Positions 47,182 to 52,015 of a stretch of DNA of 57,208 bases are shown piece after piece (within the stretch, counting starts at the first letter, position 1; the number at the start of each line of letters is the position of its first letter). A program made the position numbers and the translations under genes. The stretch comes from Bacillota bacterium (GTDB taxonomy: Bacteria > Bacillota > UBA4882 > UBA10575), in assembly GCA_029782135.1 (NCBI GenBank), contig JAKOVI010000135.1, positions 1 through 57,208 of the forward strand. The letters run 5' to 3'. The notes beneath the pieces are model-generated. The model was not told the origin of the DNA, searched no databases, and worked only from the letters and a program-made list of their open reading frames with translations.

Positions 47182-48639
47182 ATGGTCTTACCAGAACGAT
47201 GGAAGCGGCGCCTCTGTCGTAAATTATCGCCTAGACTGGCGGAAGAGGTCCTCACAGCCAAGGCGCAAGAGATGGTCCAGGTGATTATTGAATTCCCGGC
47301 CTTGCGTTCATGTAGCACCGCCCGGATCAAAGAACTCATCCACCAGGCCGGGGGAAAGGTCATTTACGAACTTCCACTGATCAATAGTTTGGCGGTTGAA
47401 CTCCCGGCCGAGCGACTGGCCGAAATTATCCCTTCCGTTCATGCCAAGATGGTCTGGCCGGATGTACAAGCTTGTCCGTGTTTGGATGTTGCCGTCCCGG
47501 CAGTCGGTGCTGACCTTGCGCACCAGCAGGGACTGACCGGGAAGGGGATCGTAATCGCAGTGGTTGACACCGGCATCGACCCGCATCCGGACCTGACGAA
47601 ACCAACCTCCCGGATTGTCGGCTGGCATGACTTGGTCAACGGGAGAAGCAAACCCTATGATGATGAAGGACACGGCACCCATGTCGCCGGGATTATCGCC
47701 GGGAACGGGTATCAAGAAAACGGTAAATATACCGGGATTGCCCCGGAGGCGCTGCTGGTGGGGGTCAAAGTTTTAGACAAAATGGGAAGCGGCCCCATCT
47801 CCCGGGTGATTGCCGGGATTCAATGGGTGGTTGATAATAAAGAGAAATACCGGATTAAGGCAATCAACCTTTCGCTGGGGGCGCCCCCGGAGCAAGGGTA
47901 CCGCACGGATCCGGCAAGCAAAGCGGTGAATGCTGCCTGGAAAGCGGGGCTTTTGGTCTGCGCGGCAGCCGGCAATTCCGGACCGGGGCGGTGGACAATC
48001 ACGACCCCGGGGATCTCGCCCCTGATCATTACCGTCGGGAGTATCGATGACCAAGGTACCGTCCCGCGGACCGATGATGCGATCTCTGATTTTTCCAGCC
48101 GGGGACCTACGATCGATTTTCTGACCAAACCGGATCTGGTGGCGCCCGGCGCCCGGATCACTTCCTTGAAACCGGGCGGCGGTTACATTGAAAGCTCAGG
48201 AACTTCGATGGCCACCCCGGTGGTCACCGGCGCGGCCGCCCTGCTTTGGCAAAAGGATCCGGACCTGACTCCGGATCAAATCAAAAAGCTCTTGATGGCA
48301 ACCGCCGAGGATCGCGGCTATAACCGGCAGATCCAAGGGGCGGGTTACCTTAATCTGAGTACGGCCCTCGCCAGCCTTGATAAGAAACTAGCGCCGCAAA
48401 GTAATGAAACCCAGGAGGACCTTGCATTTGCCTTGATTATGGCGGTAGGACTCAAGTATGCCGACGGCGAAAAAAAAGAGGAACTGTTAACGCTCCTCTC
48501 CAACCATCTTAGTGACTGGCTGCGGAAGACCGGGCGGTTCCCGCACCAGGATCCGGTATTTTACCAGGAACACCTGCCGGCCTTTTTCCGGGGGCTTGGC
48601 GAATGGATGCTCCGGGAAAACAAAACAAAGACTAGCTAA
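47182..48639 (+). CDS. Subtilisin-like serine protease (AprX type, intracellular)
   Basis: A 485-residue S8 family protease without signal peptide. The N-terminal region of about 110 residues resembles an inhibitor-like pro-domain (VQVIIEFPALRSCSTARIKE). The catalytic triad is seen as Asp in VVDTGIDPHPDLT (near 134), His in DEGHGTHVAGIIAGNG and Ser in SGTSMATPVVTGAAAL, with oxyanion Asn in CAAAGNSGPG. A C-terminal extension of about 90 residues is helical and acidic (QEDLAFALIMAVGLKYADG). The lack of a signal peptide suggests cytoplasmic use, as for AprX. GGGGGTGTGAAG precedes ATG 47182; GTG 47176 is possible. Confidence 0.9.
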   Translation: MVLPERWKRRLCRKLSPRLAEEVLTAKAQEMVQVIIEFPALRSCSTARIKELIHQAGGKVIYELPLINSLAVELPAERLAEIIPSVHAKMVWPDVQACPCLDVAVPAVGADLAHQQGLTGKGIVIAVVDTGIDPHPDLTKPTSRIVGWHDLVNGRSKPYDDEGHGTHVAGIIAGNGYQENGKYTGIAPEALLVGVKVLDKMGSGPISRVIAGIQWVVDNKEKYRIKAINLSLGAPPEQGYRTDPASKAVNAAWKAGLLVCAAAGNSGPGRWTITTPGISPLIITVGSIDDQGTVPRTDDAISDFSSRGPTIDFLTKPDLVAPGARITSLKPGGGYIESSGTSMATPVVTGAAALLWQKDPDLTPDQIKKLLMATAEDRGYNRQIQGAGYLNLSTALASLDKKLAPQSNETQEDLAFALIMAVGLKYADGEKKEELLTLLSNHLSDWLRKTGRFPHQDPVFYQEHLPAFFRGLGEWMLRENKTKTS

Positions 48640-48656
48640 AACTTTTAAAGTTTTTT

Positions 48657-48678
48657 AAAGGCCAATGGCCTTTTTTTT
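48657..48678. terminator. Rho-independent terminator between subtilase and DUF3307 genes
   Basis: AAAGGCC pairs with GGCCTTT around AAT, followed by more T residues (to 48678). The flanking A and T runs let it work for both converging genes. It overlaps the stop codon of the minus-strand gene. Confidence 0.8.
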
Positions 48679-49450
48679 ATGAGATCATCCTTTTCAGCCC
48701 CAAACCGGCAAAGAGCGCCAGGCCGTAGCTTGTCAACGTTCCGACCAGGTAATATTCGGCAAACTCCCGGTTGTTCAACTCCTGGTATCGGGCGAGCGAT
48801 TTGGCGGCGAGCACAAACCCCATTGCCGAAACTGCATCAACAACGACCAAAGTGATTAAGATCAGACGTTCAATCATTCCGATCGCCCGCCCCAACCGCT
48901 GGGTGTGCTCCTCAGGGGGGCGTCCGGTCAACCACTCCAAAAGCCTGGCGGTGAAGACGGCGCCGCCAAAGATGGTAGCCAGGTAAAAGATGAAGACCCA
49001 TAAAACCGCTTCCCAGTTCACCTGCGGAAGGCGGGGAAGGCCGGCGAAGACCGGAATTGCCCGTGACGGGAGAAGCCTTTGGTAAAAAGCCATGACTTCC
49101 GGATCGGGGGCGGCGGAGGGGAAGAAGAAGGACAGAAAGAAAAGCAGCAGCAGGTGGAGGGTTTGATCGGTCAGGAAAAGGAAGAGTTTGGTCCCTCCGG
49201 AACGCCCCTTGGCCAGGCTTTCTTTCCCGAAGTCAATGAGGAAATGGGAAAAACCAATTAACCCGGTATAGATTAAAGACGGACTTAAGCCGAAAAAGTG
49301 CGTTGCCAGGAAGGTCAGGAAGGCGACCAAGAGGGCATGGCGGATAAAAGCCCACAGCTTCCCGTTTTGTTTCGCCATAACGGTCTTCGGTGCCTGAAAG
49401 AGAAAATCACCGGCCAAATGGGCGACGATGGCAAAGAGAAAGAGGTTCAT
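48677..49450 (-). CDS. DUF3307 family membrane protein
   Basis: A 257-residue integral membrane protein with about six to seven hydrophobic segments. The N-terminus (FLFAIVAHLAGDFLFQAPKT) carries the H...GDF.FQ pattern of DUF3307. Further segments are LLVAFLTFLATHFFGL, LIGFSHFLIDFGKES (the second conserved His/Asp cluster), LLLLFFLSFFFPSAAP and VLWVFIFYLATIFGGA. The conserved His and Asp on the membrane face suggest metal or lipid chemistry, but no function is known. AAAGGAGG precedes the ATG. It lies downstream of satD on the same strand, with 80 bases between that hold three palindromes and a promoter. Confidence 0.8.
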   Translation of the reverse strand: MNLFLFAIVAHLAGDFLFQAPKTVMAKQNGKLWAFIRHALLVAFLTFLATHFFGLSPSLIYTGLIGFSHFLIDFGKESLAKGRSGGTKLFLFLTDQTLHLLLLFFLSFFFPSAAPDPEVMAFYQRLLPSRAIPVFAGLPRLPQVNWEAVLWVFIFYLATIFGGAVFTARLLEWLTGRPPEEHTQRLGRAIGMIERLILITLVVVDAVSAMGFVLAAKSLARYQELNNREFAEYYLVGTLTSYGLALFAGLGLKRMIS

Positions 49451-49460
49451 GGCTTCCTCC

Positions 49461-49539
49461 TTTCACCAATATGATGGTGAAAATTTATATATCACCTATA
49501 AAAAGGTGATCAATAGCAGTTCACCGGCGGTCAGGTGAT
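49461..49539. promoter_or_regulatory. Three evenly phased 20-bp palindromes over the DUF3307 promoter
   Basis: TTCACC-N8-GGTGAA (49462-49481), ATCACC-N8-GGTGAT (49491-49510) and TTCACC-N8-GGTGAT (49520-49539) have their centres exactly 29 bases apart. On the minus strand, TTGATC (49513-49508) and ATATAA (49490-49485) are 17 bases apart, so the middle palindrome fills the promoter spacer. The right palindrome overlaps the satD stop codon, and the left one touches the DUF3307 ribosome binding site. I infer a cooperative repressor site. SatD itself has a C-terminal HTH-like segment. Confidence 0.75.
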
Positions 49540-50151
49540 TGTTAATAGTTTGGCGGGCATTAGCCTTAAAGCATCTTCGGCTTGCTGAATGACTCGCCAG
49601 TGCGCAGCCCGGCACCTTTTTTCGACGTTCTGTAAGGCGATCCCCAAGCGGGCGGCGGCTTCCCGGTAAGTTCCAGCCGCTTCATAAGCCATTACCCCTT
49701 CCCACTGTTCCTGGGTCCAGCGGGACAGGATCGTATCGTAAAGGGCGAAAAAGGCATTCACGGCCTGGTCGAACTGGTGGTCGCCGCTGACCAGCTTCGT
49801 CATGGTGTGCTGTTCTTCTTTTGCCAGGTCCAGCGCCTGCCGGGCATGGTGGAAAGCCGGACCATTCATCTGCCAGGAACTTTCCGCTTCCAGACCGGAG
49901 GTGATCGCGCCCAGGCCAATCCCAATCCGCAATTTCAGGGGGAGGAAATGATAACGGAGCTGGCGGAGTAGGGACGGGGTGCGCAGGTAGCCGGCACAGA
50001 CCGCCTGGATCTCATCCCCGCGCGAGAAAGTGAAAGGGGTGACCATCCCGGGCACAATTAGTCCGGCGAGACCTTGCTTTTTCTCGGCGACCAAAGACTC
50101 CTGGCGGCGGGAATCGATAATATCGGCCGTAATGACAGTATATAATTCCAT
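49531..50151 (-). CDS. satD: SatD family protein with cyclase-like and HTH-like segments
   Basis: A 206-residue cytoplasmic protein that resembles SatD. The N-terminal part has ITADIIDSRR, then FSRGDEIQAVC, then LRIGIGLGAITSG and QMNGPAFHHARQAL, an order that matches class III nucleotidyl cyclase palm segments (ADI, GDE, IGI..G, GxA...A). The two metal Asp positions seem kept, while the adenine and ribose contacts differ. The C-terminal end (YREAAARLGIALQNVEKRCR) reads as a sigma-region-4-like helix-turn-helix. GGAGGG is seven bases before ATG 50151; five codons upstream lie outside. It precedes the DUF3307 gene, its usual partner. Role unknown. Confidence 0.72.
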   Translation of the reverse strand: MELYTVITADIIDSRRQESLVAEKKQGLAGLIVPGMVTPFTFSRGDEIQAVCAGYLRTPSLLRQLRYHFLPLKLRIGIGLGAITSGLEAESSWQMNGPAFHHARQALDLAKEEQHTMTKLVSGDHQFDQAVNAFFALYDTILSRWTQEQWEGVMAYEAAGTYREAAARLGIALQNVEKRCRAAHWRVIQQAEDALRLMPAKLLTIT

Positions 50152-50308
50152 GGACAAACCCTCCAATCGTCCGGACCCACCGGGACGGATTGTCAGGTTA
50201 AATATTCTTCTGTTTACTATTATTTCCTCTCTCTTTTCTTCATTTTCCCCAACTGACAGGAATATTATTATTTTTACCGAAATTTGTTATAATACGGAGG
50301 AAAACCCT

Positions 50309-52015
50309 GTGCTGAAGCGTTTATCCCTGGTCTGGACCGTCTGTTTTCTCAGCGGTTTTCTGGTCAGTCAGGCGGCGAGCTTGGAGATTAGCGGCGAGCC
50401 GGGCGCCAGGGTAGTATTTGCCCGTTATTTCCAAAACCGGTGCGGACTCCATTACCGGTGGGGCGAAGGCCGGTCGAGCAGCTTTCACCTCAGTTACCGT
50501 TTTGCCCCCCCAGCTTCCGGTGTCAGCATGGAAAAAGGGGCAGCCGGTGGGGAACCCGGTGGAACGGCTGAAGGGTCCGGCGGCACCGGCGGACAGGTCC
50601 TGGGCCGCCTCCCTCTCCTGCTGGTGGTTAATTTCTGGAATCCCGTCTCCACGCTCAGCCTTTCTGAATTGGAAGCTATTCTCCGCGGGGAGATTACCAG
50701 CTGGAGCGCGGTGGGGGGAGCGGATCTCCCGATTAAAGTGGTGGCTTACGCCGCGCAAGGCTATCCGGGTCTGCCCGGGCCTTCCCTGGTTGCCCGGTTG
50801 GTCCCTGACCAGCAGGCGATGGTGGCGGCGGTCGCGGGTGATCGTGAAGCACTGGGAGTCATAACCTGGCCGGCTGTCCACCCGGAGGTAAAAGTCCTGA
50901 CCTTGGAAGGGGTCAATCCGGCCTGGGTAGAAAATGACCATGCTCTGGAGAAATACCCCCTCTGGGCGGAGCTCGTTTTAACCCCTGCCCGCCGCCAGGG
51001 GTTACGCGACTGGGTAAACGGTAATTGGTGGCGAGCCTGCCGTTTCCAACGGGAACTCCGGAAAAGTTACCACCCGGGAAAGATTCTATCTTCACCGTCA
51101 CCCCTCATTTTCACCGCCGTTGGCGACATCATGCTGGCCAGGGAAGTGGCGAAGACCAGTGTCGCCCAAGGTGATTATTGTTATCCCTTCCGGCGGATCG
51201 CCGGGGTCACTCGCCGTTCGACGCTGGCGTTTGCCAATTTGGAGGGGCCGCTCAGCGACCGGGGGCGGCAGCTTAATATGTTCCGGGCCGATCCCCGTTT
51301 TATTGAAGGCCTACTCTACGCCGGGTTTGACATCCTCTCGCTGGCGAACAACCACATCATGGATTACGGAACAGTTGCACTCGTGGATACGATGGAACGC
51401 CTGGCGGCGAATGGTTTGCATTATGTGGGGGCCAATACCAACCTTGACCTGGCCCGCCAGGGTTGTGTAATCACCGCTAACGGGTTGAAGGTGGGGTTTC
51501 TGGCCTACACGGAAGTGGGGCCTGGTTTTACTTATACTCGTGAACCGCAACACTGGATCGCCACCGCGGAACTCCCGGGCGTGGTCCCTGCCCGGGTGGA
51601 CTACCTCCGCCAGGATATTACCCGCCTGCGGGAGCGGGCTGATCTGGTCATTGTCTCGATGCACTGGGGGAGGGAGTTTCAGGATAAACCCACCCAGAAG
51701 CAGCGGATCTTAGGACAGGCCGCCTTGGCCGCCGGTGCCGATCTGGTGATCGGGCATCATCCTCACGTCATCCAGGGGGTGGAGTTTGGCGGGAAAGGGG
51801 TCATTGCCTACAGTTTAGGGAATTTTGTCTTCGATCTGACAGGGGAAGAAACGAAGCAGGGGTTGATCCTGGAGGCGGCCTGTGATGAGCGGGGGGTGAG
51901 GCAAATCCGGTTTCTCCCGGTGACGATCCGGGACGTGCAGCCGCAGATCGCCGAGGGGAAGACAGCCCGTCAGATTATGGAGTTGTTGGACCTGGTCTCG
52001 GCGAAACTGGAGTAA
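50309..52015 (+). CDS. PstS-like domain fused to a CapA/PgsA-type metallophosphatase domain
   Basis: A 568-residue exported protein. The signal peptide is RLSLVWTVCFLSGFLVSQAAS. Residues about 100-245 resemble half of a phosphate-type periplasmic binding protein (SLSELEAILRGEITSWSAVGG, then ALGVITWPAVHPEVKVL and KYPLWAELVL). Residues about 265-565 form a CapA domain: FTAVGDIMLAREVA, LAFANLEGPLSD, LSLANNHIMDYG, SMHWGREFQDKP and IGHHPHVIQGVE with metal-type Asp, Asn and His. CapA proteins take part in poly-gamma-glutamate export or anchoring. The start is GTG 50309 behind GGAGG; a frame reaching back to 50030 crosses satD and is not used. The gene is divergent from satD. Confidence 0.82.
   Translation: MLKRLSLVWTVCFLSGFLVSQAASLEISGEPGARVVFARYFQNRCGLHYRWGEGRSSSFHLSYRFAPPASGVSMEKGAAGGEPGGTAEGSGGTGGQVLGRLPLLLVVNFWNPVSTLSLSELEAILRGEITSWSAVGGADLPIKVVAYAAQGYPGLPGPSLVARLVPDQQAMVAAVAGDREALGVITWPAVHPEVKVLTLEGVNPAWVENDHALEKYPLWAELVLTPARRQGLRDWVNGNWWRACRFQRELRKSYHPGKILSSPSPLIFTAVGDIMLAREVAKTSVAQGDYCYPFRRIAGVTRRSTLAFANLEGPLSDRGRQLNMFRADPRFIEGLLYAGFDILSLANNHIMDYGTVALVDTMERLAANGLHYVGANTNLDLARQGCVITANGLKVGFLAYTEVGPGFTYTREPQHWIATAELPGVVPARVDYLRQDITRLRERADLVIVSMHWGREFQDKPTQKQRILGQAALAAGADLVIGHHPHVIQGVEFGGKGVIAYSLGNFVFDLTGEETKQGLILEAACDERGVRQIRFLPVTIRDVQPQIAEGKTARQIMELLDLVSAKLE

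Follow-up and report, generated by a model that had tools for sequence, protein, structure and literature searches.

Three 20 bp palindromes, arranged in tandem between satD and a DUF3307 gene of a Bacillota bacterium, are very probably the operator of SatD. We propose that an oligomeric SatD binds the array through its helix-turn-helix (HTH), most likely shutting off the DUF3307 gene, and that a nucleotide releases the block. From sequence comparison, we infer strongly that SatD physically binds the array, moderately that it represses DUF3307, and weakly that the ligand is a nucleotide and DUF3307 an effector. The array has a conserved spacing, its half-sites covary with the SatD HTH, and it is nearly restricted to satD loci.

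The array between satD and DUF3307

The window, i.e., the whole 57,208 nt stretch of DNA that was analysed, has exact matches to WTCACC-N8-GGTGAW at the three palindromes of Table 1 and nowhere else. Neighbouring centres are 29 bp apart in both intervals. The first-pass annotation had described this phasing, with one site on the satD stop codon and another touching the DUF3307 ribosome-binding site; the exact matches, the equal centre distances and the coordinates bear it out. Seven exact matches occur in the 2.38-Mb genome. The four outside the array are isolated singles, and the satD-DUF3307 gap is the sole cluster of such palindromes. A tandem operator is defined here as at least two 20 bp palindromes with an 8 bp gap and centres 28 or 29 bp apart, adjoining satD or its partner gene, and the window array has this form. 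The nearest genome (G001) keeps the three-site array, with 32 of 36 arm positions identical as against 17 of 42 in loops and spacers. This difference points to binding sites, not a recent repeat.

Table 1. Positions of the palindromes, genes and SatD segments within the window.
Feature	Coordinates	Strand	Remarks
Palindrome 1 in the direction of transcription	49520..49539		ATCACCTGACCGCCGGTGAA on minus strand; spans satD stop codon
Palindrome 2	49491..49510		ATCACCTTTTTATAGGTGAT on minus strand; within presumed promoter region
Palindrome 3	49462..49481		TTCACCATCATATTGGTGAA on minus strand; abuts DUF3307 ribosome-binding site
satD (PF16264)	49531..50166	-	Alternative start ATG at 50151; proposed array binder
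DUF3307 membrane protein gene (PF11750), proposed regulated partner	48677..49450	-	Structure model pLDDT 92.2, all-helical
Shine-Dalgarno AGGAGG of the DUF3307 gene	49456..49461	-	Sequence
Tentative promoter around palindrome 2, weak	49484..49513	-	TTGATC ... TATAAA, 18 bp spacer; no consensus match
SatD HTH (residues 150-190; helices 152-164, 167-174, 178-187)	49597..49719	-	Structure model; covariation
SatD recognition helix (residues 178-187)	49606..49635	-	Structure model; covariation; residue 178 against base 2

SatD is a member of the PF16264 family (E 1.2e-17, 64.7 bits against a curated cut-off of 29), and its partner matches PF11750 with E 2.2e-16. No tandem array is found upstream of satD in the window (p 0.62), and thus DUF3307 is taken to be the target there. 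No sigma-70-like promoter passes a simple consensus scan of 48600-50400. TTGATC with TATAAA 18 bp on is only suggestive of a promoter, and the hexamers TTGATC/ATATAA, which the first-pass annotation had set around the middle palindrome, are poorly supported, having no match in that scan.

The gene divergent from satD (50030-52015) combines a PGA_cap domain, of capsule synthesis, with a PBP_like_2 segment; its start, as set by the automatic open-reading-frame call, falls within satD and probably lies too far upstream. The same genome also encodes a second, distant SatD-like protein of the same family (L149, G000 contig 161, 10690-11241). It has no adjoining DUF3307 gene, and no tandem array is found at this paralogue.

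Spacing and distribution of the array

The satD loci came from named records and from a set of 399 genomes of the phylum. Sampled lineages include Bacillota (Hydrogenispora relatives among them), Halanaerobiales, Limnochordaceae, Atribacteria and Acidobacteriota (Pyrinomonadaceae, Blastocatellia), along with haloarchaeal loci and Agrobacterium and Sphingomonas (alphaproteobacterial) plasmids. Two scans were run. The first assumes just a 20 bp palindrome with an 8 bp gap and covers the satD-DUF3307 gaps of 77 loci: a spacing of 29 bp is found in 27 loci, 28 bp in 6, and no other value between 20 and 45 bp in more than 3. Shuffled sequences give 0.28 loci at 29 bp, compared with the 27 of 77 real ones. 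The second scan makes no assumption on the half-site and demands only that four half-sites agree (score at least 25 of 28). Across 102 satD loci it finds 29 with centres 29 bp apart and 8 with centres 28 bp apart; over the range 14-44 bp no further spacing turns up, and there is a small echo at 56-58 bp. By per-locus shuffles of the scanned flanks, 64 of the 102 loci have a tandem array at p<=0.01, where about 1-2 are expected by chance. Shuffling thus rules out a chance origin of the palindromes and arrays, and the first-pass suggestion to look for the sites at other satD-DUF3307 pairs is answered by these 64 loci, at 28 or 29 bp.

More than one third of the 102 loci have no significant array in the scanned flanks. 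Among them are L051, L052 and L057 of Halanaerobiales, and a group of paralogues that lack DUF3307. Some may encode divergent SatDs with operators outside the 28/29 bp model or outside the flank limits, as in reversed operons.

The array accompanies satD across phyla and into archaea; members of the SatD family both in and outside Bacillota carry it. Haloarchaeal satD has two pairs, of the GTTCGCC and GTTCGG types, each spaced at exactly 29 bp, and on a Sphingomonas plasmid three sites follow one another at 28 bp. At one haloarchaeal locus (L155, 2230-2356), both 29 bp pairs stand in tandem as a four-site operator.

Between the end of the last site and the DUF3307 start codon there are usually about 0-24 bp, with a median of 14 bp (n=33). 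At loci other than that of the window, the array may lie before satD or before both genes, and in reversed operons it sits before DUF3307 (L129, L140 and L144 at p<=0.01; L135, L141 and L142 at p 0.03-0.04). The constant factor across loci would be control of the membrane partner. One three-site array, in G107 (L164, 2430-2507), lies right 3' of the DUF3307 stop codon, which is not a promoter position.

Arrays with at most one mismatch in the 399 genomes are all at satD loci, save those of G074, G044 and G308. In G074, a remnant of the satD start is immediately 3' of the array, and in G308 the array is adjoined by a piece of the satD HTH. No satD remnant is detectable beside the array of G044 (L160), a genome of the same genus as G308. 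On contig 14 of G274, what remains of a DUF3307 C-terminus comes after a weaker array with two mismatches. Arrays outside satD loci are thus mostly ghosts of the satD locus. Loci L159, L161 and L163, where arrays adjoin decayed satD or DUF3307 remnants, indicate that operators outlive the genes. Phage records yielded no SatD.

SatD, its recognition helix and the half-sites

The SatD structure model (pLDDT 89.3) has two parts. The N-terminal domain has the cyclase palm fold, with Foldseek probability 1.00, E values of 5e-4 to 7e-4 and TM scores of 0.40-0.53; matches include 1ybu_A (E 5e-4), 4zvf (E 7e-4) and 9pd0_A (E 4e-3) and fall in the class III cyclase, GGDEF and mCpol families. This fold is common to class III cyclases, GGDEF proteins and the mCpol of Panoptes OptS. 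D15, D51 and R109, candidates for the two metal-binding Asp residues and the Arg of class III cyclases, are invariant in SatD. Where those cyclases have their transition-state Asn, SatD presumably has Phe105, a placement made by motif reading, and catalysis is conjectural. At the C-terminus, residues 146-191 weakly match the C-terminal region of the ECF sigma factor SigK. A PDB sequence search with the SatD profile was discarded, as it returned just chance matches to ribosomal protein L16.

Half-sites differ by lineage, and include TTCACC, TACACC, TGCACC, TTAACC, GTTCGCC, ATGCAT, ATCAAGG and others. Over 55 loci, the doubtful array of L029 among them, operator divergence follows divergence of the SatD HTH with r 0.79. 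With the N-terminal domain controlled, the partial r is 0.65 (permutation p 0.0002, a test that corrects incompletely for shared ancestry, which the N-domain control and the independent R/H origins described below partly address). With the HTH controlled, the partial r between operator and N-terminal domain is -0.03. The five SatD columns most tied to operator divergence, K183, W190, Q179, A187 and N180, are in or beside the recognition helix. The first-pass annotation had proposed that SatD acts through its C-terminal HTH-like part, or that a cooperative repressor is at work. The SatD HTH is indeed the part with which the half-sites covary, the N-terminal domain is not, and repression is considered below. 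We take the covariation pattern to be the likely signature of direct DNA reading by SatD.

A single residue may account for one base. In the QNV group, an R or H at residue 178 goes mostly with G at half-site base 2, W goes with A, and all other residues go with T. R/H at this position has three origins on a tree of the N-domain, the HTH being excluded; the code rests on just about three independent changes, and L014-L016 within that set are register errors. The window SatD has L178, and base 2 is T in every window half-site, as the code predicts. Residue 178 is thus the predicted reader of half-site base 2.

Mechanism, alternatives and meaning

The half-sites alternate in orientation, with centre steps of 14 + 15 bp at 29 bp phasing and 14 + 14 bp at 28 bp phasing. 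This near-even ladder suggests one oligomer rather than independent dimers. We propose that each 20 bp palindrome is bound through the sigma-region-4-like HTH at the SatD C-terminus and that SatD copies line up side by side on the array. Bound SatD would cover the DNA from satD towards the DUF3307 start codon, ending at the margin of the ribosome-binding site, and would most likely stop transcription of DUF3307. The N-terminal nucleotide-cyclase-like domain would presumably sense a nucleotide, releasing the block. This arrangement resembles that of local HTH repressors with tandem palindromic operators: the repressor gene lies beside its target, the operator covers the target start region, and there are two or three palindromes. 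It differs in the rigid 28/29 bp phasing, which makes evenly spaced alternating half-sites, and in the cyclase-fold sensor that replaces the usual ligand domain.

SatD might bind the array yet activate or co-activate DUF3307, or act both ways depending on ligand. Some loci do have a pair at about -50 to -130 upstream of the satD start, where activators can sit, and SatD could be a ligand-dependent switch. The last site usually stands so close to the DUF3307 start codon that it would overlap or follow the probable transcription start. Repression is then the most economical outcome; the position is poorly compatible with an activator, and we consider activation unlikely.

It is very unlikely that the palindromes act instead as RNA hairpins in the DUF3307 leader, bound by SatD or self-folding, that gate translation. 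The transcript does fold into three hairpins (z = -3.5), and G-U mismatches exceed A-C mismatches overall (41 against 19). For these mismatch-type counts five arrays were dropped, L029 and L033 as doubtful and L014-L016 as called in a shifted register. The G-U excess falls mostly at arm position 7, whereas the five core pairs have 12 G-U against 5 A-C and 39 other mismatches, so RNA pairing is not what is conserved. In addition, RNA has no need of a rigid 28/29 bp spacing, and the covarying part of SatD is the HTH. In haloarchaea, where leaderless transcripts are common, the arrays fall within the stretch from about -127 to the satD start. RNA hairpins were rejected as the main reading on the mismatch-type test.

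Less probable again is an unlinked regulator that binds the array in place of SatD. Arrays are missing at some satD loci, and SatD binding is deduced from comparison; but within SatD operator divergence tracks only the HTH, near-perfect arrays are almost confined to present or former satD loci, and the array follows satD across phyla into archaea. As for the idea that the array is a mobile or chance repeat that regulates nothing, local duplication could yield three near-identical repeats, but we give this practically no credence, given the arms kept between close relatives while loops and spacers drift and the same spacing found with unrelated half-site sequences.

Under the preferred reading, in which SatD represses DUF3307, the partner is the presumed effector. 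The Pfam DUF3307 model spans just residues 4-106 of the partner. Its C-terminal half is the most constant part (IGxLER ... AAKSxARF ... FAEYYLVGTLxS), seen even in the shortest partners; on Agrobacterium pAt and on a Sphingomonas plasmid, satD is adjoined by this half alone. The partner matches the phage membrane family phrog_2470; no fold match to it was found in the PDB. A conserved third regulator gene was considered and rejected: no other open frame recurs in more than 26 of 61 flanks, and the commonest are taken, by position, as antisense shadows of the two genes.

The SatD family takes its name from satD of the Streptococcus mutans sat operon, and its link to acid tolerance is loose. In the open-access literature searched, SatD is nowhere described as a regulator, and no operator, HTH or binding to DNA is reported for it; DUF3307 appears there in a phage context. 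This agrees with the first-pass annotation, which knew of no described operator for the satD-DUF3307 pair. In S. pyogenes, satD is reported to be essential by transposon data yet accessory, being absent from ~29% of genomes (PMC11323703). Such a pattern might be expected of a gene that represses a harmful neighbour, and would be at most an indirect hint of a toxin-antitoxin module whose partner is toxic when SatD is missing.

Membership in Panoptes (OptS/OptE) or another defence system was not found, as neither SatD nor the DUF3307 partner matches any of the PADLOC defence models (2023). Tentatively, and as a possibility that we rate as rather low, SatD and its membrane partner may be a self-contained bacterial and archaeal module, in which a cyclase-fold oligomer on DNA restrains a harmful or stress-acting membrane effector until a nucleotide signal (e.g., of phage attack or envelope stress) releases it. 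At the level of transcription, such a module would be akin to the Panoptes-type guards.

Both SatD and DUF3307 are widespread, uncharacterised families, and with the array SatD acquires a role that can be put to the test and a probable target gene. A single mutation would suffice to check the recognition code between residue 178 and base 2. The array also makes directly testable the puzzle of a satD that is reportedly essential where present, though many strains do without it. Finally, SatD would be a cyclase-fold sensor linked to an HTH that reads DNA, with sites that are predictable across two domains of life.
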